Positions 38,008 through 57,923 of a DNA stretch of 58,309 bases are shown here, piece by piece. This DNA is from Gammaproteobacteria bacterium (lineage in GTDB: Bacteria > Pseudomonadota > Gammaproteobacteria > Steroidobacterales > Woeseiaceae), in assembly GCA_009937505.1 (NCBI GenBank), contig JAACFJ010000021.1, forward strand, positions 1 through 58,309, written 5' to 3'. The translations under genes were made by a program, and so were the position numbers. The stretch's first letter is position 1. Each line of letters starts with the position of its first letter. Under the pieces are notes generated by a model, which made no database searches, was not told the origin of the DNA, and saw only the letters and a list, made by a program, of their open reading frames with translations.

Positions 38008-38012
38008 TGCCG

Positions 38013-41000: not shown

Positions 41001-42377
41001 AATATCCGGATACGCCCGTCGCAACGCGTCAAGCAGCACTTCGCGCTTGGGTTGCCCGGCAGATGGGTCGTCGAACGAAATGCCGAGGAACAGCGGCACG
41101 CCCGCGGGAAGATTCTTTCGGGTGCAGAGATCGGCCAGGTCGGCGACGCGGAATGGCAAACCGCCGATGCCGTATACGACGGACTGGCACGCGTGGCGCG
41201 GACCGCTACGCGAACGCTCCAGGCTCGCCCGGACTTCGCGGGTCAGGGGCGGGTCTCCGGCGAGTGGTGTGTTCACGCGTTCGAGCACGAAGGCGCGTTC
41301 GCGCCCCTCGAGCGCCGCGCCGATTGCGTCGGCCGGGAAAGGCCTCAGCACATGGATACCCAGTACGCCAACTTTGACCTTGTGATGCTTGCGGATGTAG
41401 TCGGCCGCGCAACGTGCGGTCTCGATGGCCGACCCTTGTGCAACGAGGACCGTTGCCGCGTCGTCAAGCCGGTAACGGGACACCGTCTCGTGCCGGCGAC
41501 CGGTCTTGCGTTCGAATTCGGCGAACGCAAGTTCGAGGGATTCACCGACGAAGCTGTCGAAGAACGGGCCGCGGGCAATCGCCCCGAGCGCAAAGCTCCG
41601 GGCGTCGAAGAGGGCGCCGGTGAGCACGGGTTCGTCCAGGTCGTGCCAGGCCGGTACGCGGCGCCGCGTTTCGCCAAATAGCAGCCGTTGCGCTTCGGTC
41701 GGCGATTCGATCGGATCGTCGGCTGCACCCAGCAGGGCGCTCACCTGCGCCGGCGAAAGCAGGCGGACGTCCTGGGCTGCGAGCGCGGTCTGCTCGCCGT
41801 CCATGACCACCATGACGGGTACGAGCGTTTCCTCCGCGACGCGCCGCCCGATGTACGTGAAATCGACGGCCTCCTGGACGTTGGCGGCGAACAGTACGGA
41901 GAATCCTGCGTCGGCACCAAGGTGCACGGTCTCGTGCCCGGTACCCGGGGCGGAGCCGTGCCCGGTCGCAGCGCGCGCGCCGACGTGCAGGATGAGAGGC
42001 ACATGTTTGCCGGCTGCCGAAATCAGCAAGTCCTGGGAAGCAGCAATATCGGTACCGGAAAGAAATGCCGTTGCGCGGCGTCCCGCGAGCGATAGACCCG
42101 TCGCTGCGGCGACGATGCCGCGGGGGCCCTCCGCCGACTGTGCGGCGAGTGCCTGGCCGAACAAATTGGTGCCGTGAGCGACTTCGCCGAGCCACACACC
42201 ATCGGCCGGGGCCACCGGGGCGCCGCCACCGAGAACGGCATGCGTGGCGATTCCCGCCTCCGATAACGCGACTGCGGTATTGCCATCGAGTACGGTGGCG
42301 AGGCCTTCATCGCGAATGTCTGAGCCGGCCGGTGCGCCGAATACTTTCCGGTACCAGCGGATCGCGGTGTTGCGCAT
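38013..42377 (-). CDS. Large PFOR/NifJ-like protein embedded in the Rnf operon
   Basis: The 1454-residue protein follows the single-chain pyruvate:ferredoxin oxidoreductase order: pyrimidine-binding-like domain I, domain II (LVAQGSAIETARCAADYIRKH, VLRPFPADAIG), a degenerate gamma domain (470-650), a two-cluster ferredoxin (CTGCGMCWTNCP near 720; CKSCGICVRNCE near 852), and a C-terminal domain VI. In domain VI the expected GDG thiamine-diphosphate motif reads LIGSDEMLAGQG (near 1149), and the Mg-binding Asn region reads LSGLDFGLRES. The thiamine site is probably lost. The C-terminus is coiled-coil. It may act as an electron-transfer scaffold between KorAB and Rnf. ATG 42377 has no ribosome-binding site and sits inside the rnfB frame. 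Confidence 0.8.
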   Translation of the reverse strand: MRNTAIRWYRKVFGAPAGSDIRDEGLATVLDGNTAVALSEAGIATHAVLGGGAPVAPADGVWLGEVAHGTNLFGQALAAQSAEGPRGIVAAATGLSLAGRRATAFLSGTDIAASQDLLISAAGKHVPLILHVGARAATGHGSAPGTGHETVHLGADAGFSVLFAANVQEAVDFTYIGRRVAEETLVPVMVVMDGEQTALAAQDVRLLSPAQVSALLGAADDPIESPTEAQRLLFGETRRRVPAWHDLDEPVLTGALFDARSFALGAIARGPFFDSFVGESLELAFAEFERKTGRRHETVSRYRLDDAATVLVAQGSAIETARCAADYIRKHHKVKVGVLGIHVLRPFPADAIGAALEGRERAFVLERVNTPLAGDPPLTREVRASLERSRSGPRHACQSVVYGIGGLPFRVADLADLCTRKNLPAGVPLFLGISFDDPSAGQPKREVLLDALRRAYPDIADRGVRASGNLDAGVSPKAMTISIRQLDAELGGTFVEAAAALLYKLEEGRVRSRPSIAWDGWGEVQTDWLVLGNDDLLDPGDGLVADVTLDATRNEISLREKGRTYSIDPVADGERPEMLLGALFGSLLDAGMIDHKSRRIISARRALLDGFSAERRDAIMSAFETGLEQASEVTPQTDTGGVAWDGEAPAAVRHLGRDDDIFASLPRFWDQTGVLYRDGQADRLTADPFLATGTMPPLSATFNTTSGKRSRMPVFEPAHCTGCGMCWTNCPDSAIGVVSSAPAALIDTGIRLGSAEAVRPVASKLAARIIAANKKSEDVAPAFGALLEDAYAWLKEKMPLDEDRKKAIDDGISAIVRELGTLPVAVTQPFFHDAETVKKDGAELLSIVINPDACKSCGICVRNCEPEALKSVEQDAAMLATARDRWSVFSLAPDTTSETIERIAENAEIGKMSSILLSRYCQFAMSGGDPAEAGSGEKIAVKLALAATEFRQQPLVQNFAMALADAGESVAKLVDETLSHALAVEDLEAVSEQLRTTSSPRVDLRELAESVGQAGGDHSVDTDHLLRLLELSKRITAARHDLVSGSHGLGRARYGLAVAGGTTAAWAGAFPHNPFQAPVVIDMTGDAAQLAAGLVEGHLHETTELVRLLRLARLEIEQPDGIEWKRAALANLRWQDLAPDELELCPPLVLIGSDEMLAGQGLGQLIWLLNSGLPVKMLVLSGLDFGLRESRTNDPRASLGLLALAQREAFVAQTSIADPAHLGQSMLEALACEGPALLQVYAPSPARHGFETRQTLHFARLALHSRTMPVFRYDPHSEGVFGSRISLEGNPAPDETVAPPGEDDRIFTTADWALGQDRFGRQFPPLAADAPAPMPFHEWLQLDDRGRKNKSPYVAAGDGDEEKRFAVSAPVADVADGCLANWQTLQELAGVITPFTAAVEAEIRAAVAAEHQAELDAQKQASEDEIKAIREQTQNEIAAQIRSRLLALASQKRS

Positions 42378-43186
42378 CGGAATTGTTCGCGTTCGAGCCA
42401 GACGATCGAACGGGTCGGACAGCGGAACACGGCGTCCGGTCTCGGCTCGCCGCCGGACGAATAGTCGATGACGGGGAGGTTATCTTTCATCGTGATCAGC
42501 CCCGGGGCCGCATCGGCAGCGCACTTGCCGCAGGCGTCGCAGGCTACGTTGCACAGCTGCGTCGCGGCCTCGCCCGCGAGCGGTATGTTGCATTGGACGT
42601 AGAGGTTCTGGCTCAGTGGCACGAGTTCGAACAGGTCGCGGGGACATGCCGCCTGGCAGTCCGGGCAGGCAGTACATTTTTCGGTGTTCACCTGCGGCAG
42701 CCCGTTGGCGTTCATGTGGATCGCGTCGAAGGTGCAGGCACGCTCGCAGTCTGCGAGACCGAGGCAGCCCCAGGCGCAACCCTTGCCGCCGCCGGATACG
42801 AGCGCCGCCGCCCGACAGCCCTCGAATCCCTGGTACTCGGCGATCTGGTTGGCCTGCAGGCGACCGCCGCCACACCGCAGCCTCGCAACCAGCTTCTCCT
42901 GGCTGCCGGCATCGACCTGCAAATACTCTGCGATCTCCTCGATGGCCTCGGCAGTGCTTACGGTACACTTGCTCGGCTCGATCTCGCCGGACACGACTTT
43001 TTCCGCGAATGGCAGGCATCCCGGTTGCCCACAGGCGCCACAATTTGTCCCGGGCAGCAGTTCGTTGGTTGCCTCGATTCGCGGATCCTCGTCCACCTTG
43101 AGAAAGCGCTGCGCGATGGCCAGGATCGCGCCGAAGAAAAGGCCGATGCCAACCATGATTGCGGGCGCTACGAGGATGCTGTTCAT
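42023..43186 (-). CDS. rnfB: RnfB ferredoxin subunit with abnormal run-on C-terminus
   Basis: Residues 1-269 are a good RnfB: N-terminal membrane helix (PAIMVGIGLFFGAILAIAQRF), the four-Cys cluster CGACGQPGC (near 49), then CAWGCLGLADCERAC, CTACPDCQAACP and a further CDACGKC. After VWLEREQF (about 42380) the frame runs on for 118 Arg/Ser/Pro-rich residues that are simply an out-of-frame reading of the PFOR-like gene. This 355-base overlap is abnormal. The normal stop and the next gene's ribosome-binding site appear to be missing. ATG 43186 overlaps the upstream stop by one base. Confidence 0.88.
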   Translation of the reverse strand: MNSILVAPAIMVGIGLFFGAILAIAQRFLKVDEDPRIEATNELLPGTNCGACGQPGCLPFAEKVVSGEIEPSKCTVSTAEAIEEIAEYLQVDAGSQEKLVARLRCGGGRLQANQIAEYQGFEGCRAAALVSGGGKGCAWGCLGLADCERACTFDAIHMNANGLPQVNTEKCTACPDCQAACPRDLFELVPLSQNLYVQCNIPLAGEAATQLCNVACDACGKCAADAAPGLITMKDNLPVIDYSSGGEPRPDAVFRCPTRSIVWLEREQFRCATPRSAGTGKYSAHRPAQTFAMKASPPYSMAIPQSRYRRRESPRMPFSVAAPRWPRPMVCGSAKSLTAPICSARHSPHSRRRAPAASSPQRRVYRSRDAAQRHFFPVPILLLPRTC

Positions 43187-45651
43187 CAGTTAAATGGCGC
43201 CGCTCGGGCAATCAGTTCGTCCAGGTTCGGCTCGTTCGGGTCCAGTGGCTTGCCGGGATGGATACACTTGGCCGGACAGATCTCGGCCGCACGGACGAGA
43301 TCTTCATAAGTACCGGCTTTTGGATCTGTCAGATACGCCTGCTTGTCCTCGTTGTACGCGAACATCATCTTGTTGATGCCCATGCAGTCGTCGCAGGTCG
43401 TGCACGCCGGCGTGTCGAGCCAGGGCTCGTCGAAACTCAACTCCTCTTCGGGTTCTTCGACCTCGGCTGGCTCGGCTTCCGCTCCGGCCTCGTCGGCTTC
43501 CGCCGGCGCCTCGACCTCGGCCGGGCGGGCAGCCGGCATCGTGGCAAGCTGGCCGCCACCGACGACCATGCCGGACAAGTCCGCTCCCATGAGCACGTCG
43601 ACAAGCTGCCCCATGGCCTCGCCGGCGGCCTCCGAGCGAACGGACTCCAGTTCCTCTGCATGCTCTTTTCGCAGCTGCTCGCGTTCGGCTTCCAACTCGG
43701 CGCGTTGCTCTTCGATAATCCGCTCGATCGCTTCCTCGACGTAGTAGTTCTGGACGCCGGCGAGTTCCTGCAGGGCGTGCCAGTAGTTGAGCCGATCCCG
43801 GCAGGCGAAAATGAGCGCACGCGATACCACCAGCCGGACGAGTACGCCGTCCTCGCCGATGCCCCACACGAACGGGACCAGGCGATCGCGGTGTTCCTCG
43901 CTTGTATCGAGGAACTCGGACACGGTGACGAGCTCTTCCGATGCGAAGCCCGTAGGCACCGTACGGAAATGTTCGTGCAGAGCAGGCATCAGCAACGCGT
44001 AGTCGGCAAACGTAAATGCCAGCTCCATGGTCGTCTCTTCGCCATCGGCGCTTTGGTATTCCAGTGTCTCGACCGGCCAGTCGGCATCCGGCTGCGGATT
44101 GCCGTCAAACCTGACGCGCATTGCGGCCTGGTCGCCGGCGTCCGGATCGATGAGGAGGAAGGGGTGTGCGCGGCTCTCAAGGGCCGCGCTGGCGACGAAC
44201 CAGGGCTCGAGGATCGGCTTGCTCGACTTTGTCTGCGTGCCGCGATTGATCAGGTGCAGGCTTGCCCGATTGCTGTCGATGGCGCACGTAAAACCTGCCA
44301 GCAGGCCCTCATGACGCGCAGCCGATGTCTGCGCCACAACGACCTGGCGATGGCCAATGCCGAAGTTCGCAAGCTCGAAGCGATACGCATCGAAGGGGCC
44401 CTCGCCGGGTTTCACGGCCGGATTGTCATAGGCGCGTACCCATGTGAGCACGTGCACCGGCAGCCGTGAGCCGAGCAGGTGCGAGAATGCGGGCAAACCG
44501 TCGGTTGCGAGGTAGTCGGCTGACTCCAGCGCCACCGCGCGCGGCACGAGCTGCAGTTCCTCGTCGGAGAACGCCTGCCAGTCAAAGCTGGCGAACCATG
44601 AGTCGTGCACGGCCGGATCGTACTGATCATCGAGTTCGAGGCCGGCGATGCGCAATGCCGCGAACAGGCGAGCGAAGCGCACGGCGTCGTCGAGGAACAG
44701 CTCGCTTGCGGTCGCGCATGCCTCGTAGCTCTCGACGATATCCAGATCGGCTTGCTCGGCGAACCACGGGTTGACGACGCGGCCCGCAATTCGAACCAGC
44801 ACGGCGTTATCGTCCCAGGACGTCAATTCGCCGAGCGCATTCTCGATCCTGGATCGCCTTTCGGGCGCCATCTCCTGCGAACCGTGCGACCGTTTCTCCA
44901 GCATGCCCGACAAGGCGTCGCTGTCCAGGAACTGCCCCGCAGGACCCACGCTGCTGCTGACGCTCTCCGGCTCATTGCCTTCGCTCGACTTGGATTGCTC
45001 GACGAGGAGCAGCGACTCGAGAGCGGCGGCGCACTTCTCGACTTTGTGGCGCAGCTTGGCGCGGCGCGGCGCGAGCAGGTGCCGGATCGCGTGCACAAAG
45101 AGGTGCAGCGGCACGTCGGGCCCGTAGCCGAGGTACTGGCTGCCTTCCGCTACCCTGGCGCCCAGCTCGGCCAGGTTGGCTGCGAGTGTCTCCTGGTTGC
45201 TGTCGCTGAGGTCCAGGTGCTCTTGCAGCGCCTCGGCCGCCTCCGAGAACAGCGACGGCGCGTCGACCGGATCGGGCCCCGTCAGCTTTTGTCGAAGGTA
45301 GCGTTCCAGCCACGGCAGGTTGTCCTTTAGCATCCTGGCTTGCTCGGCGGCCGGCGCAAAGGTCTCGATCGACTCCGCCAGGTGCTCGGAGAGCGGCCTC
45401 GCCAGGACTGTCTCCACCGCGTCGCCTCGCGGCACGAGGTAGAGCGGATACTGGTAGCGGATCGCCGACGAATCCCGGTAGGGATTCAGGAGTGCGGGCA
45501 GGATTGCACCGGCGGGCGCCGAGGTCGATGCGGCCGCCGACGGTTCACCGTAATGGAAGCGGCGCAGCAGGTTGATCACGGCTGCACCGTCTTCGACTTC
45601 CGTCTGCGCCGTTTCCACGGCGGACTTCTTGTTTTCGGCTGCGGAGTCCAT
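43186..45651 (-). CDS. PFOR-related protein with coiled coil and C-terminal ferredoxin
   Basis: The 821-residue protein is not a known Rnf subunit. Residues about 330-650 share collinear segments with domain VI of the 1454-residue protein: WQAFSDEELQLVP, LPVHVLTWVRAY, VVVAQTSAARHEGLL, RVRFDGNPQPDADWP and WHALQELAGV. No thiamine motif is present. Next come a charged coiled coil (635-680), an Ala/Glu-rich linker, and a ferredoxin-like end with CTTCDDCMG (near 750) and CPAKCIHPG. I propose an electron-carrying partner of KorAB and RnfB, between which it is encoded. The first 330 residues are unrecognised. Confidence 0.65.
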   Translation of the reverse strand: MDSAAENKKSAVETAQTEVEDGAAVINLLRRFHYGEPSAAASTSAPAGAILPALLNPYRDSSAIRYQYPLYLVPRGDAVETVLARPLSEHLAESIETFAPAAEQARMLKDNLPWLERYLRQKLTGPDPVDAPSLFSEAAEALQEHLDLSDSNQETLAANLAELGARVAEGSQYLGYGPDVPLHLFVHAIRHLLAPRRAKLRHKVEKCAAALESLLLVEQSKSSEGNEPESVSSSVGPAGQFLDSDALSGMLEKRSHGSQEMAPERRSRIENALGELTSWDDNAVLVRIAGRVVNPWFAEQADLDIVESYEACATASELFLDDAVRFARLFAALRIAGLELDDQYDPAVHDSWFASFDWQAFSDEELQLVPRAVALESADYLATDGLPAFSHLLGSRLPVHVLTWVRAYDNPAVKPGEGPFDAYRFELANFGIGHRQVVVAQTSAARHEGLLAGFTCAIDSNRASLHLINRGTQTKSSKPILEPWFVASAALESRAHPFLLIDPDAGDQAAMRVRFDGNPQPDADWPVETLEYQSADGEETTMELAFTFADYALLMPALHEHFRTVPTGFASEELVTVSEFLDTSEEHRDRLVPFVWGIGEDGVLVRLVVSRALIFACRDRLNYWHALQELAGVQNYYVEEAIERIIEEQRAELEAEREQLRKEHAEELESVRSEAAGEAMGQLVDVLMGADLSGMVVGGGQLATMPAARPAEVEAPAEADEAGAEAEPAEVEEPEEELSFDEPWLDTPACTTCDDCMGINKMMFAYNEDKQAYLTDPKAGTYEDLVRAAEICPAKCIHPGKPLDPNEPNLDELIARAAPFN

Positions 45652-45664
45652 GGTCGCTCCGGGG

Positions 45665-46621
45665 TCAGATGGCGAAATGGTCCAGCGCTTCGTTGAGGCC
45701 GGCGAGCTTCTCTTCCGCCGTCATCTCGAGGCCCACCGACGACATCAGGTCGTAACGCGGTGCGTCGGGGTTGTGGTAGAGAATGCCGAGGGGCAGCACG
45801 CTCTCGTCCTCTGCCAACTGGCGAGCGGCATGGATATCGGACGGATCGTGCTCCGCCTGATTCGGAAACTGCCGCTTGACCGAGTCGTCGACCTGCACGC
45901 CTTTCTCGTGTGTGAGGAGCTGCATTCTCGCGGGCTCGTCCTGGAGCGCCTTGCCGATGGATTCGACGTAGACAGGGCAGCGCTGGATGATTCTCACGAA
46001 GCTCGTTCCCTTGTGCGCGTGAGCCATCCTGATCACTTCGTGCCTGAGCTGTGCATTCCAGTCCACGATCTGTGCGACGAACGAGATATTCGTGATGCCC
46101 AGCGTCACGGTCAACGGGTTCAGCGGCGGCAGCAGTGCGCCCGACGGATGGGTATTGGTGGGCACGTCGAGCGGTGTCGTCGGTGAAGTCTGTTTCTTGG
46201 TCAGGCCATAGATGCCGTTGTCGAATACCAGCAATGTCAGGTCCATGTTGTAGCGCATGGCATGGATCCAGTGCGCCGCACCAATCGAGAAGCAGTCGCC
46301 GTCGCCGGTCGCGACCCAGACGTCAAGATCGGGGCGCCGCGATTTGACGCCGCAGGCAACCGGCAGCGCGCGTCCGTGCAGGCCATGGAAGCCGTAGGTA
46401 TTCATGTAGTGAGGCAGCCGGCTGGAGCAGCCGATGCCGGACACGGCTACGGTCTTTTCGGGCTTGAGCTGTGCGTCACGGCACACGCGATGCACCGCGG
46501 CCAGTATCCCGTGGTCACCGCAGCCCGTACACCAGCGTGGTTCGGCACCGCAGTAATCCTCCAGCGTGAAATAGCGTTCCTTTACGTCGAGAGACCAGTC
46601 ACCTTTCAAGCCGAACATCAT
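45665..46621 (-). CDS. korB: 2-oxoacid:ferredoxin oxidoreductase beta subunit (KorB-like)
   Basis: The 318-residue subunit binds thiamine diphosphate: WCTGCGDHGILAAVH, SGIGCSSRLPHYM, the metal motif ATGDGDCFSIG, and FDNGIYGLTKKQTSPTTP. This is the 2-oxoglutarate-type beta subunit, which oxidatively decarboxylates 2-oxoacids to acyl-CoA and reduces ferredoxin. AAGGAG precedes ATGATG. ATG 46618 may be the true start. The korA stop overlaps it. It is the only intact thiamine-binding enzyme of the operon. Confidence 0.93.
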   Translation of the reverse strand: MMFGLKGDWSLDVKERYFTLEDYCGAEPRWCTGCGDHGILAAVHRVCRDAQLKPEKTVAVSGIGCSSRLPHYMNTYGFHGLHGRALPVACGVKSRRPDLDVWVATGDGDCFSIGAAHWIHAMRYNMDLTLLVFDNGIYGLTKKQTSPTTPLDVPTNTHPSGALLPPLNPLTVTLGITNISFVAQIVDWNAQLRHEVIRMAHAHKGTSFVRIIQRCPVYVESIGKALQDEPARMQLLTHEKGVQVDDSVKRQFPNQAEHDPSDIHAARQLAEDESVLPLGILYHNPDAPRYDLMSSVGLEMTAEEKLAGLNEALDHFAI

Positions 46622-48666
46622 TCTGCTCCTTCTATCTGTTCGAGGGTTTCGTCAATGACCCGGCCGATGGTGGCGGGTGACAACGGGTGGCCCGGGACCT
46701 TGGACCAGCAGTCAATATCCATGAGCGTGTGCGCCCGCAGCAAGTACGCGAGCTGTGCGTAGCGCCGGTTCTCGCTACCGGACAATGGTGCGTCAGGCGC
46801 GTCGCTGTCTTGAGGCCGGGTTCCATAGGCGACAGGAACCTGAGGTGCACGGAGGACACCTTGTTGCCTGCGTCTCGAGCCAGGTCGACGGCTTCCTCGA
46901 TGGCGCCGATCGTCGAACCCCAGCCGACGATCAGCAGATCGCCTTCCGGATCGCCGTGCACCTCGGGTGGCTTCAGCGTCGCCGCCAGTGCGGCCAGCTT
47001 GCGGCTGCGCATGTCCATGCCTTCCTGGTTGGATTTGGTGTCGTAGGCAATCTTGCTGTTACGGTTGTGAGCAAGACCCGTGAGAATGTATTCGCCACCG
47101 CGCATGCCGGGGATCGGGCGCTCCGACAGACCGGTCTTCTCATCCCAGTCATAGGGCAGCACGTTTTCGTCCCACTTCGACTGGTCGACGGGCGGGGCGA
47201 ACCACTCGTCCGTCGCTTCGGGCCGCTCGATTGCCTGCACGCCTGTCGCCAGGTTGGCGTCGGTGAGAATCAGGACCGGCGTGCGGAACGACTCGGCGAG
47301 CTTGCGCGCCAGGATTACGAAGTGAAAGCACTCTGAAATCGTGGAGGCGGCGAGCACCACCTTGGGCGCATCGCCTGGCGCGCCGAAGATGCAGGCGAGC
47401 AGGTCGCCCTGTTCGACCTTGGTCGGCAGGCCTGTCGCCGGGCCGCCGCGCTGCACGTTGATAATGACCAGCGGAATCTCGGCCATGACGGCAAGGCCGA
47501 TCATCTCGGTCTTGAGTGCGATGCCGGGACCAGACGTGATTGTGCAGGCGGTCTTGCCGGCGTAGGAAGCGCCGATCGCGAAGCCGATCGCGGCAATTTC
47601 ATCCTCCGCCTGGTGGACGAAACCGCCGGTCAGGGGGAAGTCGTCCGCCAGGTAGTGCGACGCCGAGGTTGCCGGTGTAATCGGGTACATCGAGACGAGT
47701 TCGATGCCTGCCGCCATGACGCCGAGTCCTGCCGCCGTGTTGCCGTTCATGACGAGCGCGGACTCGAGCCGGTCCTCCGGCGCCGTCGTGATACTGAACT
47801 GGTAGCCGATGTTGTCGAGGGCGAACCCGTAGCCGGCGTCGAACAGGTCATGGTTGATGTTGATGACCTTGTCGCTCTTCTTGCGGAAGATCTTGGCAAT
47901 TTCTTCCTTGGCCTTGTCCGCGTCGCGGTTGTAAATGCGGCAAAGCATGCCGAGCACGAACATGTTCTTTCCCTTGCGCGGGTCGGTTACGAGCTTGAGG
48001 CATTCCTGCTGGATCGGCAGTTCGTGCACGATCAGGCCGCGCTTCTTGAAGTCGGCGAGTGCTTCGGCGTACTGCTCGCGCACCTTCGGCTCGGGGTCCT
48101 CGGCCCACATGTTCTCGAGCAGCACGACGGTGCCTTCCTTGTAGGCGCCGTTCTGGATGCGGGAGTAGAGGACCTGCTCGTTGAAGGTTCGACCCCATGC
48201 GCACGCGGATGCCGCTGGCGCCCTCTCGCGAACGCGCCGGCGGCTGGATTTCGGCCGGGATGATCTCGACGGTCCATACGCCGTTGCCCATTTTGCCGCT
48301 GACCAGGCCGAGTAACTGGCCGCATTTTTGCGCACCCTCACCGGAGTCACTGACGATCTCGACGATGTGCTGATCCATGGTAAGCGGACCGGAAGATGAC
48401 TTGCCGTTGCCGCTGACCGAGGTTTTTTTCTCCCCGGCCTCGCCGCCGTTCTTGCTGGTCCGAACCTTCTCGATCTCGCTCCGGAACTCCTCTACGACCT
48501 CCCAGCGCGTCTCGCGCGCGGCATCGAGATCATGGGTGTGTAGCGAGCGGCGCAGGTCGTAGCCGAGTTCGTCCCGCAGTGTCCGCGGTACGGCAACCTT
48601 GACCCACCAGGTCTTATCGCGTCTGAACAAGTACCTGGTATCGCCTTCGACGTGTGAATCTGACAT
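46618..48666 (-). CDS. korA: 2-oxoacid:ferredoxin oxidoreductase alpha subunit (KorA-like), two frame breaks, extra N-terminal domain
   Basis: From ATG 48666 (after GGAG and AAGG) the protein begins with about 65 residues like the N-terminal module of phage-type integrases (YLFRRDKTWWVKVAVPRTLR), then a Gly/Ser linker and the KorA gamma domain (MDQHIVEIVSDSGEGAQKCG, from M97). At about 48190 the frame breaks. The main part (FNEQVLYSRI to SPMEPGLK, with ITSGPGIALKTE and QRGGPATGLPTK) is in another frame. Near 46810 it breaks again, and the true end (MDIDCWSKVPGHPLS) stops at 46618, overlapping korB. About 13-17 expected residues are missing at each break. The operon otherwise looks functional, so assembly error must be considered. 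Confidence 0.82.
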
Positions 48667-50200: not shown

Positions 50201-50228
50201 GGAATAATCATCCTTGATGAGGCGTCAT
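50201..50228 (+). promoter_or_regulatory. ECF-type promoter upstream of the sox operon
   Basis: GGAATA (50201-50206) and CGTCAT (50223-50228) are separated by exactly 16 bases. The same elements with the same spacing precede the ECF sigma operon (minus) and the DsrE2 gene. A start near 50235 would leave almost no leader for soxX ATG 50239, so soxX may really begin at ATG 50266. Confidence 0.65.
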
Positions 50229-50238
50229 ACACTAGTAG

Positions 50239-50625
50239 ATGCACGGTAAAAACCTGAAATTTTTCATGCCGTTGTGCGATTTTCGCCGGCTTGCGGCCGG
50301 AATCGCTGCGATGTCGGTACTTGCTCTTGCCGCGGCGCATGCGACAACGGACGACGGCATCGCGGCGGGCAAGTCCCTGGCGATGGAACGCAGCAAGGGA
50401 AACTGCCTCGCATGCCACAGTATCGAGGACGGGGAACTTCCCGGTACGATCGGCCCGCCGCTGGTAGCAATGAAATTGCGTTTCCCGGAACGCGCGGCGC
50501 TGAAGCAGCAGATCTGCGATGCGACGGTTCGGAATGTGGATTCGCGGATGCCGCCATTTTGCAGGCACGGGATCTTGACGGAAGACGAAGTCGAATTGAT
50601 TGTCGATTACCTGTACACGCTGTAG
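50239..50625 (+). CDS. soxX: SoxX, monohaem cytochrome c of the thiosulfate-oxidising complex
   Basis: The 128-residue product has a signal peptide (AAGIAAMSVLALAAAHA) and one haem c site C56-L-A-C59-H60 in GNCLACHSIEDG, with the distal Met M104 in DSRMPPFC. SoxX pairs with SoxA to couple thiosulfate to the SoxY Cys and accepts the electrons. The ATG at 50239 has no ribosome-binding site and is very near the predicted transcription start; ATG 50266 is an alternative that still encodes the signal. It is first of the operon soxX-Y-Z-A-K-B-dsrE1. Confidence 0.92.
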   Translation: MHGKNLKFFMPLCDFRRLAAGIAAMSVLALAAAHATTDDGIAAGKSLAMERSKGNCLACHSIEDGELPGTIGPPLVAMKLRFPERAALKQQICDATVRNVDSRMPPFCRHGILTEDEVELIVDYLYTL

Positions 50626-50653
50626 CGTGGGGTAGTCCAATGGAGAACGGAGT

Positions 50654-51106
50654 ATGGATGTAGGGAGAAGGCTATTACTCAAGGCTGGGGTCGCGTTCGC
50701 GGCGCTCGCGGCCCTGCCGAGAACGCTGCTGGCCGCAGCCTGGCCCGAGAAGGCGTTTGCAGCCACCGAGGCCGGGGCGGCGATGTCGACGCTGTTCGGC
50801 ACGAACCAGGCTACGCCGTCCGCGGAGATCAAGCTGAAAGTGCCGGAAATAGCGGAAAACGGTGCCGTGGTGCCGGTCACGATCAGCACGACGCTCGAGA
50901 ACGTGGAGTCGATCAGTATCGTGGTCGAGCACAATCCGCGGCCGCTGGCGGCCAGTTTCGAGATTCCGGCGGGGACGCTGCCCAATGTATCGAGCCGGAT
51001 AAAGATGGGTGAAACGTCCGACGTAATTGCGGTCGTCAAGACGGATACAGGTATCTACAGCACGTCGAAGCAGGTCAAGGTTACGATCGGCGGCTGTGGC
51101 GGCTAG
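50654..51106 (+). CDS. soxY: SoxY, sulfur-carrier subunit
   Basis: The 150-residue protein has a Tat signal (GRRLLLKAGVAFAALAALP) and the C-terminal GGCGG arm with C148, the Cys that carries covalently bound sulfur intermediates in the periplasm. The Ig-like body contains VVPVTISTTLENVESISIVV. It is exported together with SoxZ, which lacks a signal. The gap to soxX is 28 bases. Confidence 0.95.
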   Translation: MDVGRRLLLKAGVAFAALAALPRTLLAAAWPEKAFAATEAGAAMSTLFGTNQATPSAEIKLKVPEIAENGAVVPVTISTTLENVESISIVVEHNPRPLAASFEIPAGTLPNVSSRIKMGETSDVIAVVKTDTGIYSTSKQVKVTIGGCGG

Positions 51107-51127
51107 CCCGGCGGAGGGAGACGAGTA

Positions 51128-51442
51128 ATGGCGAGCAAGATAAAGGTCAAGGCGAAACTGTCGGGGGATTTGGCGGAAATCAAGAGCCTCATGCTGCATC
51201 CGATGGAAACCGGGTCGCGAAAAGACCCTGACACCGGCGAACTGGTGCCCACGCACCACATCACCCAACTGACGTTCACGAACAACGAGAAGACGGTGAT
51301 GGTTGCCAACTTCAGCACGGCAGTATCGAAGAACCCGTATTTCAGTTTCAGCTTCAGTGGCGCAAAGGCGGGTGACACGCTCAAGGTCAGCTGGATCGAC
51401 AACAAGGGTGCTACGGACGAACTCGAGACCGTACTGAAATAG
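51128..51442 (+). CDS. soxZ: SoxZ, partner of the SoxY carrier
   Basis: The 104-residue protein lacks a signal peptide and matches SoxZ: ASKIKVKAKLSGD at the N-terminus, MLHPMETGSRKDPDTGELVP, and the C-terminal beta-rich FSFSFSGAKAGDTLKVSW. SoxYZ is the heterodimeric carrier that the other Sox enzymes act on. ATG 51128 has GGAGGGAGACGAGTA upstream, an excellent ribosome-binding site. Confidence 0.95.
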   Translation: MASKIKVKAKLSGDLAEIKSLMLHPMETGSRKDPDTGELVPTHHITQLTFTNNEKTVMVANFSTAVSKNPYFSFSFSGAKAGDTLKVSWIDNKGATDELETVLK

Positions 51443-51467
51443 TGGGTCGCGGCGGATCGACACCTGC

Positions 51468-52307
51468 ATGAAGAATAGTGCCGCCATGCTGTTGCTAAGC
51501 CTCGTGCCGATGCTGACGCAGCAGGCAGCCGTAGCGGGGCCCGAGGATGACCGAGAGGCCTTCGTCGAATATTTCCAGTCACGATTTCCCGACGTAGCGT
51601 TTGCGGAGTTTGCAAACGGCATCTATGCGATCGACGAAGACGCGCGTGGGCAATGGCTGGACATTGAGGAGTTTCCGCCCTACGAATTTGCGGTTGAACA
51701 GGGCGAGACCCTGTGGCAAGAGGCTTTGCCGGACGGGGCGCGGCTTGCTGATTGTTTTGGCCAATCCACGGGCGATATCCGCCCGGCTTATCCCCGCTTC
51801 GACGCCGGCAGGGGCGAGGTCGTGACGCTGGCGGTGGCCATCAACGACTGCAGGCAGACGCAGAAGTTGCCGGTATGGCCCTATGACTCCGAAGAGCTGA
51901 TCAGCATCACGGCGTATCTCGCGTACGCGGCGCGGGGAAAGCCGGTTGTGACGCAAATTCATGCGGACGAGCCTGGCGCGCTCGCCGCCTACGAGGAGGG
52001 CAAGCGCTTCTACTACAGCAAGCGCGGGCAGCTGAATTTCGCGTGTTCCGATTGCCACGTGACGTCGGTCGGGCTCCATGTTCGCGCGGACAGGTTGAGT
52101 CCGAGCCTGGGCCATACCACGCATTTCCCGGTTTATCGCTCCAAGCTGGGCACGGTGATCTCGTTGCACCAACGCTTCTCCGGTTGTGTGCGAGACGTAC
52201 GGGCAAAACCGTTCGCACTGCAAAGCGAAGAATTCCGGAATCTCGAATACTTCCTGAGCTATATGAGTAACGGACTCGAATTCAATGGCCCCGGTGCGCG
52301 CAAGTAA
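51468..52307 (+). CDS. soxA: SoxA, monohaem L-cysteine S-thiosulfotransferase subunit
   Basis: The 279-residue protein has a signal peptide and one haem c site, C193-S-D-C196-H197. The active-site Cys that becomes a persulfide haem ligand is C240 in FSGCVRDVRAKPF. In the N-terminal half, C96 and C128 stand where dihaem SoxA proteins have a second haem, so this is the one-haem, disulfide type. It forms SoxAX with SoxX. The soxK gene starts inside its last codons. Confidence 0.95.
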   Translation: MKNSAAMLLLSLVPMLTQQAAVAGPEDDREAFVEYFQSRFPDVAFAEFANGIYAIDEDARGQWLDIEEFPPYEFAVEQGETLWQEALPDGARLADCFGQSTGDIRPAYPRFDAGRGEVVTLAVAINDCRQTQKLPVWPYDSEELISITAYLAYAARGKPVVTQIHADEPGALAAYEEGKRFYYSKRGQLNFACSDCHVTSVGLHVRADRLSPSLGHTTHFPVYRSKLGTVISLHQRFSGCVRDVRAKPFALQSEEFRNLEYFLSYMSNGLEFNGPGARK

Positions 52308-52596
52308 ACGCGGCATGGCGCTGGCCGTTCTCGCAGCGGTGTTCGCTGCAGCCGGATGCACGACGGCATTCGAGCAGCAGCTGGCGGAGGCGGAGCTGCT
52401 GCGAGTCGAGGCTGCCGCCGCGGGCGCCGAGTGGCTGCAAACCGGGGCGCTGCTGGAGCAGGCTCGCGATGAAGCGGCAGGCGGTGACATGGACGCCGCA
52501 CGAGCACTGGTCGACAAAGCGCGATTCCAGGGCGAAGCCGCACTCCGCCAGGCCGAACATGAAGCCTCTGCCTGGCAGAATCGGGTCGTGCAGTGA
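52285..52596 (+). CDS. soxK: SoxAX-binding lipoprotein, SoxK/SAXB-like
   Basis: The 103-residue protein has a lipoprotein-type signal (LAVLAAVFAAAGC, Cys25) and a helical mature part with GAEWLQTGALLEQARDEAAGG and ALVDKARFQGEAALRQAEHEA. This pattern matches the small SoxAX-binding protein (SAXB/SoxK), which raises SoxAX activity, and it occupies the usual place between soxA and soxB. It overlaps soxA by 23 bases. An alternative start is ATG 52315. Confidence 0.78.
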   Translation: MAPVRASKRGMALAVLAAVFAAAGCTTAFEQQLAEAELLRVEAAAAGAEWLQTGALLEQARDEAAGGDMDAARALVDKARFQGEAALRQAEHEASAWQNRVVQ

Positions 52597-52612
52597 CGGC
52601 GAAAGGGGAAAG

Positions 52613-54376
52613 GTGGACAGGCGCGAATTCCTGAGGCTGCTGGCCATCGCCGGCATCGCTACCGGTTCGGCCGGTTGCGCGGCCCGCAAACAATTGCCCG
52701 AAGCAGACATCTACGCGGCCGAGCCTTTCGGCCAGGCGCGCCTGATGCACTTTACCGACTGCCACGCCCAGCTGTTGCCGGTCTACTTTCGTGAGCCCAG
52801 CGTCAACCTGGGATTCGGCGACGCAAGGAACCGTCCGCCACATATTGTCGGCGAAGCGCTGCTCGAGCATGCGGGGATCGACCCGGGCAGCCGTTTTGCG
52901 CATGCCATCACTCATCTCGACTTCGTGTCCGCGGCACGACGCTACGGCACGGTGGGTGGATTCGCACACCTGAAGACACTGGTCGATCGGCTGCGCGACG
53001 AGGCGGGGCCGCAGAGTTGCCTGTTGCTCGATGGCGGCGATACCTGGCAGGGGTCCGGCACGGCGTACTGGACCCGAGGACGGGACATGGTAGGTGCCTG
53101 CAACCGTCTCGGCGTCGACGTCATGACCGGCCACTGGGAATTCACCTACGAGGACGCGGAAGTGCTGCGGAACATCGACGAGTTCGCCGGCGAATTCGTG
53201 GCGCAGAATGTCCGACTCACTGACGACGCCCTGTTCTCCGGTGCAGCGGCGTTCGACGAAGATTCGGGCCACGTGTTCCGGCCCTATACCGTGCGCGATG
53301 CAGGCGGCAGAAGGATCGCTGTCATCGGCCAGGCCTTTCCATACACGCCGATTGCGAACCCGTCACGTTTCATCCCCGACTGGACCTTCGGCATCCGCGC
53401 CGGCGAACTGCAGGGCCTTGTCGACGCGGTGCGCGAGAACGAGCGACCCGATGCGGTCGTCCTCTTGTCGCACAACGGCATGGACGTCGACCTGAAGCTC
53501 GCGCGCGTGGTTTCGGGTATCGATGCGATCCTCGGTGGACATACGCACGACGGCGTACCTGTTCCGGTCATCGTCGACAATAACGCAGGCCGCACCGTGG
53601 TAACGAATGCGGGTTCCAACGGCAAGTTTCTCGGCGTGCTGGACCTCGAATTCGGCAATGGCGGTGTCAGCGATTTCCGTTACCGCCTCTTGCCCGTGTT
53701 CTCGAACCTGCTGCCTGCCGACGCGGATATGAGCGCTTACATTGCGAGCGTCCGCAAACCCTGGCGGCAGGTACTCGAGGAACCGCTCGCAACTGCCGAT
53801 GTATTGCTTTATCGCCGCGGCAATTTCAACGGCACGTTCGACCAGGTGATCTGTGATGCTCAACGTGCGGTCGGTGACGCACAGATCGCGTTGTCGCCGG
53901 GATTCCGCTGGGGGACGACCGTTCTGCCGGGCGATACGGTGACCATGGAGCGTGTCATGGACCAGACCTGCATCACGTACCCGGAGACCTACGTTCGTGA
54001 CATGACCGGCGAGCAGATAAAACTCATCCTGGAAGACGTGTGCGATAACCTGTTCAATCCGGATCCTTTCTATCAGCAGGGCGGAGACATGGTTCGTACC
54101 GGCGGCATGAATTACGTGTGCGAGCCGACCGCCGGCGCCGGCGAACGAATTTCGGCGATGACACTGGATGACGGCACGCCGGTAGAGGCGGGCAGGAGCT
54201 ACCGTGTCGCCGGCTGGGCGACGGTCGGGAGCCAGGCGCCGGGGCCACCCATATGGGAGGTCGTCGCCGAATATTTGCGCGACCTGAAAGTTGCGAAGAT
54301 CGAGCGGTTGAATACGCCTGTGCTGAAGGGCGTGGAAAACAACCTCGGGGTAGCCGACTATCCCGGACAAGCCTGA
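52613..54376 (+). CDS. soxB: SoxB, S-sulfosulfanyl-L-cysteine sulfohydrolase
   Basis: The 587-residue periplasmic enzyme hydrolyses sulfate off the SoxYZ-bound sulfone, using two Mn ions. A Tat signal is present (DRREFLRLLAIAGIATG). Metal-site motifs are HFTDCHAQLLP, LLDGGDTWQGSG, MTGHWEFT, LLSHNGMD and LGGHTHDG. The C-terminal 5'-nucleotidase-like domain is complete. GTG 52613 follows AAGGGG. The frame opens at 52469 inside soxK. The window has no soxCD, so sulfane sulfur left on SoxY must be handled elsewhere. Confidence 0.96.
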   Translation: MDRREFLRLLAIAGIATGSAGCAARKQLPEADIYAAEPFGQARLMHFTDCHAQLLPVYFREPSVNLGFGDARNRPPHIVGEALLEHAGIDPGSRFAHAITHLDFVSAARRYGTVGGFAHLKTLVDRLRDEAGPQSCLLLDGGDTWQGSGTAYWTRGRDMVGACNRLGVDVMTGHWEFTYEDAEVLRNIDEFAGEFVAQNVRLTDDALFSGAAAFDEDSGHVFRPYTVRDAGGRRIAVIGQAFPYTPIANPSRFIPDWTFGIRAGELQGLVDAVRENERPDAVVLLSHNGMDVDLKLARVVSGIDAILGGHTHDGVPVPVIVDNNAGRTVVTNAGSNGKFLGVLDLEFGNGGVSDFRYRLLPVFSNLLPADADMSAYIASVRKPWRQVLEEPLATADVLLYRRGNFNGTFDQVICDAQRAVGDAQIALSPGFRWGTTVLPGDTVTMERVMDQTCITYPETYVRDMTGEQIKLILEDVCDNLFNPDPFYQQGGDMVRTGGMNYVCEPTAGAGERISAMTLDDGTPVEAGRSYRVAGWATVGSQAPGPPIWEVVAEYLRDLKVAKIERLNTPVLKGVENNLGVADYPGQA

Positions 54377-54388
54377 GATGCCAAAGCC

Positions 54389-54835
54389 ATGAGAACCTCT
54401 TGCCTGTTCGCCCTGGTGTTGATCCTCCTGAGCCTTGCGGGCGCGCAGGCTTCGGCCGACGACGAGGGCAAGCCGTTTGCAGAGGCAAGGATCGTCCTGC
54501 AGATGGCGGATGGCGATGCCGAATCACAGACCCGCGTTCTCAATGTCGCCAATAACCTGATCAAGCACTACGGTGGGCCGGATTTCGTCGATATCGAGAT
54601 CGTGGCGTACGGTCCCGGTCTGTCTCTGCTGTTCCCGGGAAATGCCAACGAAGAGCGAATTTCCAGCCTGTTGACCAACGAGGTGCGATTCGTCGGCTGT
54701 ATGAACACCGTCGAATCGATCGAGCGGGCTACGGGTGAGCGCCCGGATCTCATTCCCGAGACCATACCGGTGCAGACAGGGGTGGCGCGCCTGGTCGAGC
54801 GGGCGCAGCAAGGCTTCGTAGTAATCCGGCCCTAG
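54389..54835 (+). CDS. Periplasmic DsrE-like protein 1
   Basis: The 148-residue protein has a signal peptide (FALVLILLSLAGAQASA) and a DsrE/DsrF-like fold: RIVLQMADGDAESQTRVLNVANNLI, VDIEIVAYGPGLSLLF, VRFVGCMNTVESI. C104 sits where DsrE-family sulfurtransferases carry a Cys. It starts 12 bases after soxB and so ends the sox operon. It is about the same size as DsrE-like protein 2 (57471-57923). A role in accepting or trafficking sulfane sulfur from SoxYZ is likely but inferred. Confidence 0.75.
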   Translation: MRTSCLFALVLILLSLAGAQASADDEGKPFAEARIVLQMADGDAESQTRVLNVANNLIKHYGGPDFVDIEIVAYGPGLSLLFPGNANEERISSLLTNEVRFVGCMNTVESIERATGERPDLIPETIPVQTGVARLVERAQQGFVVIRP

Positions 54836-55003
54836 CGCACGGCAGGCCTTGCCTGTTCGGCCTGCTCGCTCAGCTCGAGCACGGTTGCGACGGGCATGAT
54901 GGCCGACCCGGCGCAGCGTGATCTGCCTTCGCCCTTAACGATGACGCCGCGATCACGGCGATGGCGCCGCACAAGCGGCTCCGGGTCCTGCGACTTAACA
55001 CGG
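54836..55003. other. Convergent intergenic region between sox and ECF operons
   Basis: The two operons meet here. GCAGGCC/GGCCTGC near 54842-54865 can form a 7-bp stem after the DsrE1 stop, without a clear T-run. A minus-strand open frame across this region shows no recognisable protein. Confidence 0.3.
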
Positions 55004-55960
55004 TCACAAGGGCTTGATTGCGAGTTCGTCGTCCGATGCGCGCAGGAAGCCGTAGCTTTCGTAAATGGCTTGCGCATCATCAGTCGCAAGGTAGGCAAGG
55101 TAACGGGCGGCGTTGTCGGCATTACGGCCGGTCTTCATGATGCCTATGGCGTAGTTCACCTTGTCCTGCTTGTTCAGGGGCGCCGGAATGGCGACACCGT
55201 CGATCGGGCGTCCTTCTGCTTTCGCATGAACGACTTCCGTCGTCCAGACGATGCCGACATCCGCCTCGCCCTTCTCTATCAGGTCCGGGGTCTCGCGATG
55301 ATGACGCGACGTAAACCAGGTCTTGCCTTCGACCGCCCAGCAGCTGCGGCACTCCTTGCCACCCGTTATCTTCTCGTGCAGCCCGAGGTCCTTGAGCATC
55401 TCGCTGCCGTAGAACTTGAAAATGCCTTCGGTTAGCGGATTCGGGTGCGACTGAACGAGATCGTCGCGGCCGAGATCCTCAGGGCCCTCGATGTTTTTCG
55501 GGTTTCCTTCCGCAACCATAAGTTCCAGCTTGTTGTGAATATAGATCGCGTATTCGTCCATCAGGCCCTTCTCGTTGAGTTTCCTCAAGTGGCCAATGTT
55601 GACGGAGGCGAACACGTCGGGGTTCATCGCCGTTTTCTCGCCCTCGATCTCGCCCTGCTTGAGCAACTGGTTCTTGAGAATCTGGCCGGGAGGAATCGTC
55701 TCGACGTAAACCGACTCGATGTCGGGGTTCTTCTTCTGGAAATCCGAGATCAGTTCCTGCATCACCATGAACTGGTTGCCTGCCAGGTACATGACGAGGT
55801 CGGCGGTATAGGAATCACCGATCGAGCCGTATTCCACTTCCCCGTTCGCATGGAACGTCCGGTAGTCCTTGCCATGGCCAGCGTCTTTGGATTCGGCTAC
55901 TGCGGTGCCGGACGCGGTGGCGAACAATCCCAGCAACGCAAGCTTTGCGGAAGTCTTCAT
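55004..55960 (-). CDS. Periplasmic solute-binding protein of the ECF operon
   Basis: The 318-residue protein has a signal peptide (LALLGLFATASGTAVA) and the two-lobed layout of ModA/tungstate-like or Fe-type solute-binding proteins (LVMYLAGNQFMVMQELISDF, PDVFASVNIGHL, GEADVGIVWTTEVVHAKAEG). It also has a C204-x2-C207 pair in GKECRSCWAVEG, not usual in that family. No permease or ATPase gene is nearby. It begins about 20 bases after the anti-sigma stop, so it belongs to the ECF operon and could deliver or sense a ligand, perhaps a sulfur oxyanion. The ligand is unknown. Confidence 0.78.
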   Translation of the reverse strand: MKTSAKLALLGLFATASGTAVAESKDAGHGKDYRTFHANGEVEYGSIGDSYTADLVMYLAGNQFMVMQELISDFQKKNPDIESVYVETIPPGQILKNQLLKQGEIEGEKTAMNPDVFASVNIGHLRKLNEKGLMDEYAIYIHNKLELMVAEGNPKNIEGPEDLGRDDLVQSHPNPLTEGIFKFYGSEMLKDLGLHEKITGGKECRSCWAVEGKTWFTSRHHRETPDLIEKGEADVGIVWTTEVVHAKAEGRPIDGVAIPAPLNKQDKVNYAIGIMKTGRNADNAARYLAYLATDDAQAIYESYGFLRASDDELAIKPL

Positions 55961-55980
55961 AATGGATATTCCCCCCGAAG

Positions 55981-56685
55981 TCAGATCTTTTCGTATTTCC
56001 AGCCGTCCTGCATTCGCATGACGACCCGATCGAGCGCCGTGTAGTCCTGCTGGATGTTGGGCACGAGTATGACTTTCACGCCTTTCTCTTCGAGGCGCTG
56101 GATGCTCCTCGCGCAGGCGTAAAACACGACGTCATTTTCCTGCAGTGTGCGAATTTCCTCCGCGAACGAAGTGACGTCACTTCTCAGCAGGTCGAGCCCG
56201 CGCTCGTTCGCAACGATTTCCACGCGGCGATATTCTCCCTCGTCCGCGGAATCCAGCAGGTATTTCGCATGCGCCAGCGCCGACTGCATCTGCTCGGGGT
56301 CGCCGCTGACAATGTGCAGCAGGTAATTTCCGGTTTGTTCCAGTGCCTGGGCTGTTGGCGCCGGCTTGGCGGCCGGGGCTTTACTGATCAGACCCTGGCC
56401 AAAATAGCCGGCCGTGGCGCCAACTGCGAGCAAGATGCCAGCGACGAGAACCCCGCCAAAAGGGCCGGAACGCCTCAGCGCCGGTCCGCCAGGGCGTTTT
56501 GCAGGAGGCACATCGTCATAGGCATGGCGCACAAGCTCTTTGAGCTTGCGCAGCTGGCACAGCCGCAAATCGAGCTCGGGCGAGTGCGCCGACTCGTTGT
56601 ACAGGCGACTTTTCTCTTCCGGATCCAGTTCACCATCCACGAAAGCATTCAATTGCTCTTCGGAAAAATGTTCGTCCTTCTTCAT
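55981..56685 (-). CDS. Anti-sigma factor with membrane helix and periplasmic DsrE-like domain
   Basis: The 234-residue protein has an anti-sigma N-terminus (EEQLNAFVDGELDPEEK), but the HxxxCxxC zinc motif is only H34 with a lone C43. A single membrane helix follows (76-98), then a short Ala/Pro linker and a DsrE-like domain (119-234): LLHIVSGDPEQMQSALAHAK, YRRVEIVANERGLDLL, VVFYACARSIQRL with C191 at the conserved Cys. ATG 56685 overlaps the sigma stop (ATGA). It would hold the ECF factor at the membrane and release it when the periplasmic domain senses a sulfur species. I know no described example of this fusion. Confidence 0.8.
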   Translation of the reverse strand: MKKDEHFSEEQLNAFVDGELDPEEKSRLYNESAHSPELDLRLCQLRKLKELVRHAYDDVPPAKRPGGPALRRSGPFGGVLVAGILLAVGATAGYFGQGLISKAPAAKPAPTAQALEQTGNYLLHIVSGDPEQMQSALAHAKYLLDSADEGEYRRVEIVANERGLDLLRSDVTSFAEEIRTLQENDVVFYACARSIQRLEEKGVKVILVPNIQQDYTALDRVVMRMQDGWKYEKI

Positions 56686-57242
56686 TTCACCCTCTTCAAG
56701 GTCGCCGGTCGGCGCGGCGCCATGGCCGTGCCGACGTCTATCAGATGTTCCTTGAGCGCTCTGCGCCCTCTGCACAGGCGGCTCATAACCGTCCCTACCG
56801 GGATCTCCAGAATCTCCGCCACCGATGCATAGGTGAAGCCCTCGAGGTCCACCAACGTAACCACCTGGCACTGTGCCAACGGCAGCTTCCTGACGGCGCG
56901 ACGTACTTTGTCGACCAGCTGTTGCTTTTCCGTGTTCTGCTCCGGTGTAACCTCGTCAGCGATGACGACGTTTTCCGACGACACGACGTCACGTTTGGCG
57001 CGGTAATAGTCCTTGAGGCAGTTGGACAGGATGCGGAACAGCCAGGCTTCCGCTGCCCCAAGGTCTTTCAACTGCTTCTGATTGCTCAAGGCCTTGAACA
57101 TTGCCTGCTGCACCATGTCGTCTGCCAGGTGCGGATCGTGAGTCCAGGCATAGGCCATGCGATACAGCCGATCCCTGCTGTTCTCCACGAGTTTCCTGAA
57201 AGCCCGTCGCTGGCTGATTCCGAGGATTATTCTTTTAGGCAT
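56682..57242 (-). CDS. ECF RNA polymerase sigma factor
   Basis: The 186-residue protein has sigma region 2 (FRKLVENSRDRLYRMAYAWTHDPHLADDMVQQAMFKAL) and region 4 (QVVTLVDLEGFTYASVAEILEIPVGTVMSRLCRGRRAL). It directs RNA polymerase to specific promoters when not held by its anti-sigma factor, which follows with a four-base overlap. ATG 57242 is preceded by a GGGGGG run; the frame opens further upstream at 57350. Its own promoter-like site lies at 57280-57307, implying autoregulation. Confidence 0.93.
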   Translation of the reverse strand: MPKRIILGISQRRAFRKLVENSRDRLYRMAYAWTHDPHLADDMVQQAMFKALSNQKQLKDLGAAEAWLFRILSNCLKDYYRAKRDVVSSENVVIADEVTPEQNTEKQQLVDKVRRAVRKLPLAQCQVVTLVDLEGFTYASVAEILEIPVGTVMSRLCRGRRALKEHLIDVGTAMAPRRPATLKRVK

Positions 57243-57279
57243 CGAGCAGGACCCCCCCAATTCGTGGCCTGTACGACTA

Positions 57280-57307
57280 CTGACGTGGCAAGTCGTGATT
57301 TTATTCC
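57280..57307 (-). promoter_or_regulatory. ECF-type promoter of the sigma-anti-sigma operon
   Basis: On the minus strand GGAATA (57302-57307) is followed after 16 bases by CGTCAG (57280-57285), 38 bases before the sigma start. It is identical in the -35 and in CGTCA to the site in front of soxX. Confidence 0.65.
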
Positions 57308-57357
57308 CTGCGGGAACAACGGTATGCCCTTTCGAGGCAATCGATTTCAAGGCTAAG

Positions 57358-57385
57358 GGATTAATCTGGCTGCTTCAAACGTCTG
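57358..57385 (+). promoter_or_regulatory. ECF-type promoter upstream of DsrE-like gene 2
   Basis: GGATTA (57358-57363) and CGTCTG (57380-57385) are separated by exactly 16 bases, pointing to the DsrE2-porin unit with a leader of about 80 bases. It differs from the other two sites by one base in each core element. Confidence 0.55.
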
Positions 57386-57470: not shown

Positions 57471-57923
57471 ATGAATATCCGTAGTTTACTGGGGCCAGGC
57501 AGTGTCCTTGTCGCGTTCTGCATGCTCTTTGCACCCCAGGCGCTGATGGCGCAGGAAGAGAAACCGTTTGCAGAGCACAAATTCGTGCTGCAGATCAGTG
57601 ACATGGACCCGTCGAAGCAGACGCTGGTACTCAATGTCGCGAGCAATATTCTCAAGGCCTACGGCCAGGATCAGGCGGATGTGGAGATCGTCGCATTCGG
57701 CCCGGGATTGCGCCTGTTATTCGAAGGAAACAGCAATGCCGGCCGCATCGACGGTCTTGTCGACAGCGGCGTACGATTTTTCGCATGCCAGAACACAATA
57801 ACCAACATGTCGAAAATAATCGGCGAACCGATCAAGGTGAACAGCCACGCATCGTCGGGCAAGGGCGGGATCGTGCGCATCAAGGAACTCGTTGATCAGG
57901 GCTACATGCTGGCGAAACCTTAA
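57471..57923 (+). CDS. Periplasmic DsrE-like protein 2
   Basis: The 150-residue protein has a signal peptide (LVAFCMLFAPQALMA) and a DsrE-like domain related to protein 1 throughout: KFVLQISDMDPSKQTLVLNVASNIL, VEIVAFGPGLRLLF, VRFFACQNTITNM with C106. It shares the V-E-I-V-A...G-L...L and V-x-F-x-x-C pattern with the anti-sigma C-terminal domain. GGAGG precedes ATG 57471. It is divergent from the ECF operon and may be cotranscribed with the porin 50 bases downstream. A role as periplasmic sulfur carrier or as ligand of the anti-sigma domain is inferred. Confidence 0.78.
   Translation: MNIRSLLGPGSVLVAFCMLFAPQALMAQEEKPFAEHKFVLQISDMDPSKQTLVLNVASNILKAYGQDQADVEIVAFGPGLRLLFEGNSNAGRIDGLVDSGVRFFACQNTITNMSKIIGEPIKVNSHASSGKGGIVRIKELVDQGYMLAKP

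Follow-up and report, generated by a model that had tools for sequence, protein, structure and literature searches.

The 58,309-nucleotide stretch of DNA analyzed here, referred to throughout as the window, is contig JAACFJ010000021.1 of a gammaproteobacterium of the family Woeseiaceae (assembly GCA_009937505.1). It carries an operon for sulfur oxidation (sox) beside genes for an extracytoplasmic function (ECF) sigma factor and its putative membrane anti-sigma factor, and our subject is a promoter motif, GGAWTA-N16-CGTC, that these genes share, together with the regulatory system that may use it. The sox operon, on the forward strand, is complete for soxX, Y, Z, A and B by Pfam and NCBIfam matches: soxX (50239-50625; TIGR04485, 88.6 bits against a cut-off of 61), soxY (50654-51106; PF13501, 7e-34), soxZ (51128-51442; PF08770, 1e-34), soxA (51468-52307; TIGR04484, 222.9 bits, cut-off 110) and soxB (52613-54376; TIGR04486, 833.8 bits, cut-off 550). 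A small lipoprotein resembling SoxAX-binding protein is encoded ahead of soxB (52285-52596; NF052674, 5.5e-12, below its cut-off), and the operon ends with a gene for a periplasmic DsrE-like protein (54389-54835) that has a cysteine invariant in the family alignment and a profile hit to PDB 1l1s.

The sigma operon lies on the reverse strand. Its first gene (56682-57242) encodes an ECF26/RpoE4-like sigma factor of about 185 amino acids with only sigma-70 regions 2 and 4 (Sigma70_r2, 1.5e-12; r4_2, 6e-15), the second (55981-56685) the anti-sigma factor, and the third (55004-55960) a solute-binding protein of the SBP_bac_11, molybdate/sulfate-binder-like kind (PF13531, 6e-36; orthologues 73-86% identical), which has invariant cysteines and an invariant CxSCW motif and is adjoined by no ATP-binding cassette (ABC) partner genes. 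Divergent from this operon, on the forward strand, are a second dsrE gene (57471-57923) and the start of a porin gene that runs off the contig (57975-58309), whose orthologue in a related locus (L031:5844-7274) matches Porin_O_P at 7e-9. The original prediction had labeled the product of 57471-57923 DsrE2, a name that no search supports: the protein has no NCBIfam match at E 0.01 and a weak match to Pfam DsrE, and with its signal peptide, 1l1s-type domain by profile and Cys106, conserved in the family alignment, it is a periplasmic DsrE-like protein.

The motif stands before each of these three transcription units. At the sox operon it spans 50201-50226 on the forward strand (-35 element GGAATA at 50201-50206, N16, -10 element CGTC at 50223-50226); at the sigma operon it spans 57282-57307 on the reverse strand (GGAATA at 57307-57302, N16, CGTC at 57285-57282), as a candidate autoregulatory promoter; and at dsrE it spans 57358-57383 on the forward strand (GGATTA at 57358-57363, N16, CGTC at 57380-57383), where it probably serves the following porin gene as well. 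The original prediction had proposed these as sites of one shared ECF promoter, and a pattern search verified the coordinates and orientation of all three. The first ATG of soxX (50239) lies only 12 bases past CGTC (in the interval 50226-50266), so the messenger RNA would be nearly leaderless or translation would start at ATG 50266, perhaps the true start of the gene.

Exact matches in the window number four, as against a mean of 0.20 (maximum 2) in 100 dinucleotide-preserving shuffles, a mean that agrees with the chance expectation of about 0.2 given earlier; the fourth, which had gone unmentioned, lies inside a sensor-kinase gene (29923-29948, forward strand). The genome-wide scan that had been proposed as a check gave 17 exact matches in the whole 3.09 Mb genome, and the reversed pattern, as a control, gave 4. 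When each match was placed against open reading frames, 14 of the 17 overlapped long coding frames, and therefore only the three sites above are placed as promoters, being intergenic and pointing at a start codon. Scoring with a weight matrix derived from 61 sites in other genomes ranked the same three sites first to third in the window (28.8 bits for sox, 27.1 for dsrE and 20.2 for the sigma operon), the next score being 11.9. Matrix hits at or below 11.9 bits were considered as further regulon members in the window and rejected, as they are not promoter-placed; the best of them, at 54035 on the reverse strand, is antisense within soxB. Elsewhere in the window, a large gene cluster resembling Rnf-type and 2-oxoacid:ferredoxin-oxidoreductase genes was noted by eye (34330-48350), its upstream end overlapped by a recombinase-like N-terminal fragment (47848-48666).

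Comparison with related genomes, most of them metagenome-assembled, bears directly on the promoter. Five more loci of Woeseiaceae type (L031-L035) have the motif ahead of the ECF, dsrE and soxX genes, always with exactly N16, and incomplete loci (L019-L024, L030) have it at those of the three positions that their sequence covers. Motif-anchored alignment shows the -35 hexamer and CGTC to be 100% conserved, with conservation of 0.53-0.72 in the spacers and 0.46-0.63 in the flanks. The original prediction had named non-conservation upstream of orthologous operons as grounds for abandoning it; this was examined, and the motif is kept in all relatives with covering sequence. The shared ECF promoter is thus supported, on comparative rather than experimental grounds. 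The dsrE promoter always reads GGATTA (57358-57363 in the window and the same position in L030-L035) and those of the ECF gene and soxX always GGAATA, a single-base difference that never varies and may modulate how strong the promoters are.

The solute-binding protein gene follows the anti-sigma gene, third in the sigma operon, in every complete Woeseiaceae locus and also in L040, and in L031 the divergent run continues from dsrE and porin to genes for a thioredoxin-like protein and a YeeE-type sulfur transporter. At two loci (L036 and L037) two ECF/anti-sigma pairs of the same family lie in tandem between two dsrE genes, each pair with its own GGAATA-N16-CGTC. Among 73 genomes of the genus, the anti-sigma factor was found in seven, all of which have SoxB; by SoxB status, it was found in 7/11 positive and 0/62 negative genomes. 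The other four SoxB-positive genomes gave no anti-sigma hit: one (G181) has a contig edge inside the neighboring binding-protein gene, one (G141) still has the motif before soxX, and two (G1038 and G212) have a different soxB type, 64-66% identical, with no motif seen at their sox genes, the contig of G212 ending before soxX. A control within a single genome (G256) is provided by its two sox operons: the motif is present at the one that adjoins the ECF gene (L035) and absent from a divergent paralogous soxXYZAB (L224).

A profile made from the anti-sigma alignment extended the comparison to 369 Gammaproteobacteria genomes, 66 of which contain full-length relatives. At 28 class-level loci GGAWTA-Nx-CGTC occurred 35 times with x=16 and six times with x=15, and not at all with spacers of 13, 14 or 17-19; by manual count 22 of these loci have the motif ahead of the ECF gene, and it is often found ahead of dsrE, porin or sox genes as well. 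SoxB is present in 65 of the 66 anti-sigma genomes against 26.7 expected (Fisher 3e-29, uncorrected for shared ancestry; genome lists copied out by hand). Of 52 sox loci from anti-sigma genomes, 14 have the motif, with N15 or N16, immediately upstream of a sox gene; for sox loci from genomes that have no full-length anti-sigma, the figure is 2 of 28 (Fisher 0.04). No other spacer from 12 to 20 was found before a sox gene in the loci surveyed. In two related genomes (L138 and L139) the ECF, anti-sigma and soxXYZAB genes are contiguous on one strand, apparently as one operon. Motif matches in five complete distant genomes fall at ECF genes, soxX, and genes for a porin, a YeeE-type transporter, a DsrE-like protein and a SoxAX-binding-like lipoprotein, as named from the sequences; some other matches there are unrelated or coding. 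In L126 (G376) the gene behind a motif site encodes a YeeE-type transporter, and a TusA-like gene is nearby. Recurring GGAATATATCG...GAGCGTC matches (L113, L123, L132, L136, L177) were rejected as promoters, as they appear to be conserved coding sequence. Outside the Gammaproteobacteria, a phylum-wide sample yielded no full-length DsrE anti-sigma factor, the other hits being lone DsrE proteins, and a plasmid search yielded no DsrE-bearing anti-sigma factor. These lone proteins, from non-gammaproteobacterial genomes, are close to the sensor domain of the anti-sigma factor, and in one case (L129) the gene adjoins a solute-binding-protein-like gene.

The anti-sigma factor itself has a predicted membrane architecture of cytoplasmic sigma-binding helices (residues 9-57), one membrane helix (78-96) and a periplasmic domain (121-233), in a structure model with a mean pLDDT of 83 and about 95 in the sensor domain. 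The N-terminus is zf-HC2-like, at 18.8 bits and under the curated cut-off of 22.2; the HxxxCxxC zinc motif (ZAS, zf-HC2) is absent from it, where only C43 is present, in 24 of 29 sequences. This N-terminus and the pairing of the genes suggest that the protein binds its sigma factor, and the RR charges before the membrane helix suggest that the C-terminal domain lies outside. That domain has the DsrE fold, by Foldseek to 1l1s (E 5e-9, TM 0.89) and by a profile hit (7e-19); its Pfam DsrE match falls short of the curated threshold. Both secreted DsrE proteins of its own regulon are homologous to it (hhalign 99.6%, E 7.6e-24). Within it C191 is invariant in 18/18 and 29/29 anti-sigma sequences, as are H124, G163 and W229. 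The domain is likely a sulfur sensor across many sulfur-oxidizing Gammaproteobacteria; whether the cysteine is the sensing residue we regard as an even question.

The closest characterized relative is RpoE4 of Sinorhizobium meliloti, the best match of the sigma factor in the pSymB record CP090106 (37% identity). Start-site mapping and reporter assays gave RpoE4 a consensus of -35 GGAAT and -10 CGTC (PMC6527743, PMC3511301), an ECF26 pattern (PMC6527743) with which the window sites agree. In the rpoE4-anti-sigma-sorT locus, which we recovered, rpoE4 is preceded by GGAATA-N16-CGTC, identical to the promoter described here, and sorT by GGAATT-N15-CGTC, so that the two spacers match both of those in Gammaproteobacteria. 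RpoE4 and SigE of Starkeya novella, both ECF26, likewise form sigma/anti-sigma operons with sulfur-oxidation targets, and they respond to sulfite (PMC3511301, PMC6527743). Their targets, however, are the sulfite dehydrogenases sorT and sorAB of Alphaproteobacteria, whereas here they would be soxXYZAB and dsrE-porin in Gammaproteobacteria; moreover, the two anti-sigma factors align only in their N-terminal parts, over residues 4-54, and no DsrE domain was detected in that of RpoE4. Arcobacter butzleri also has sigma/anti-sigma pairs, sigma-2 and sigma-7, which mutants show to raise and to lower sox expression, respectively, but these belong to a different phylum and have large overlapping regulons, and the text of PMC3445524 mentions neither a promoter consensus nor a DsrE sensor domain. 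The DsrE/DsrF-fold proteins (MTH1491, PDB 1l1s; 2pd2; Escherichia coli YchN, 1jx7) share the fold and a conserved cysteine with the periplasmic domain, which differs from them in forming that half of a membrane anti-sigma factor which lies outside the cytoplasm. Other regulators of sulfur oxidation or sox include the SoxR-type sulfane-sulfur repressor of Hyphomicrobium (PMC10451225) and, as described in PMC12194929, the sigma-54 two-component system TspS/TspR of Acidithiobacillus, neither of which, in those accounts, works as an ECF/anti-sigma switch whose periplasmic part is a DsrE domain. Both the promoter class and the notion that an ECF factor can respond to sulfur are therefore already known, since the RpoE4 locus shares the promoter, the spacers and a related sigma factor. 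The literature searched, which leaves out most subscription papers, yielded no report of a DsrE-bearing anti-sigma factor, nor any account of the DsrE domain as a sensor here, of a sox regulon for this family or of how the family is spread in Gammaproteobacteria.

Taken together, these results probably reflect an autoregulated ECF26-like system that detects sulfur in the periplasm by its DsrE domain and induces sox in response. The sigma factor (56682-57242) would transcribe three operons: its own (sigma, anti-sigma and solute-binding protein genes), soxXYZA-lipoprotein-soxB-dsrE, and the divergently oriented dsrE-porin. In the uninduced state, the anti-sigma factor would use its N-terminal helices to tether the sigma factor to the inner membrane. 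Periplasmic reduced sulfur, whether as polysulfide, as sulfite or as sulfane sulfur derived from thiosulfate, would modify or occupy the C191 site, to which the solute-binding protein or else the secreted DsrE proteins may deliver it; the anti-sigma factor would then change shape or be cleaved. The sigma factor so freed would switch on sulfur oxidation and raise expression of its own operon. The sequences themselves show the sites, their conservation, the spacer rule, the family distribution, the domain architecture, the homology of sensor and regulon proteins, and the co-occurrence with sox, and on these grounds the regulon is well supported; the sigma-anti-sigma binding, the signal, the cysteine chemistry and the release step are what we infer.

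Other explanations deserve consideration. ECF promoters are short and degenerate, and the three sites might have arisen by chance or by duplication of a single stretch; we reject both on the shuffles (mean 0.2), the genome counts, the placement against open reading frames and the alignment of relatives, in which the boxes are conserved while the spacers drift, and as the sites share no similarity beyond the two boxes we give this hardly any credence. Nor do we think it at all probable that another ECF sigma factor of the genome uses sites that the local one merely shares, even though ECF26 paralogues in Sinorhizobium overlap in promoter use (PMC3511301) and two loci (L036 and L037) hold two related pairs: the motif precedes this very ECF gene at 22 of the 28 class-level loci, and the genome yielded only one full-length anti-sigma factor of the family. 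We are highly confident that the three promoters belong to the local sigma factor. Alternatively, the solute-binding protein might be the receptor, binding an oxyanion (thiosulfate, sulfite or tetrathionate) and signaling to the anti-sigma factor. Its constant place in the complete Woeseiaceae loci and L040, its strong conservation and invariant cysteines, the lack of ABC partners beside it, and a periplasmic-binding-like protein among the targets of Sinorhizobium RpoE1 (PMC3511301) all speak for such a role, but it is not seen beside the sigma operon at more distant loci and therefore cannot be the general sensor, which makes this improbable.

A somewhat stronger competitor, though still unlikely, is that the regulon is correct but the signal is sulfite, as for RpoE4 and SigE, with the DsrE domain a scaffold or partner-binder and the cysteine not a switch. 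RpoE4 is, after all, the closest characterized sigma factor and promoter, and sulfite acts on it by a release mechanism given as unknown (PMC6527743). Yet the cysteine is invariant in 29/29 otherwise widely diverged anti-sigma factors, within a sulfur-carrier fold, and the RpoE4 anti-sigma factor shows no DsrE domain. Several observations nonetheless weigh against sulfur sensing through the DsrE domain with sox as its target. That sulfite-responsive ECF26 system shows that sulfur sensing needs no DsrE domain; one SoxB-positive genome (G141) has kept the soxX promoter motif although no anti-sigma factor was found in it; and the association with SoxB lacks the correction for shared ancestry. In addition, at 38 of the 52 sox loci in system-bearing genomes no sox gene is preceded by an exact match, which means that direct control of sox is not universal, and the two motif-bearing loci among the 28 lack a full-length anti-sigma factor in their genomes.

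The sensing of external reduced sulfur by sulfur oxidizers is, according to PMC11582611, poorly understood, and PMC6527743 gives the release step in related ECF26 systems as unknown. To these questions the conserved module offers a candidate sensor domain with a single invariant cysteine, a precise promoter code from which the regulons of uncultured marine bacteria may be predicted, and an association with sox that extends across the class; it also points to the secreted DsrE proteins, the porin and the YeeE-type sulfur transporters as probable members of the pathway. We speculate, with slightly more doubt than belief, that in sulfur-oxidizing Gammaproteobacteria sox is commonly under a trans-envelope switch in which the outer DsrE fold of the anti-sigma factor reads periplasmic sulfane sulfur by way of a cysteine persulfide, a sulfur-carrier protein having been recruited as the receptor of an ECF system.

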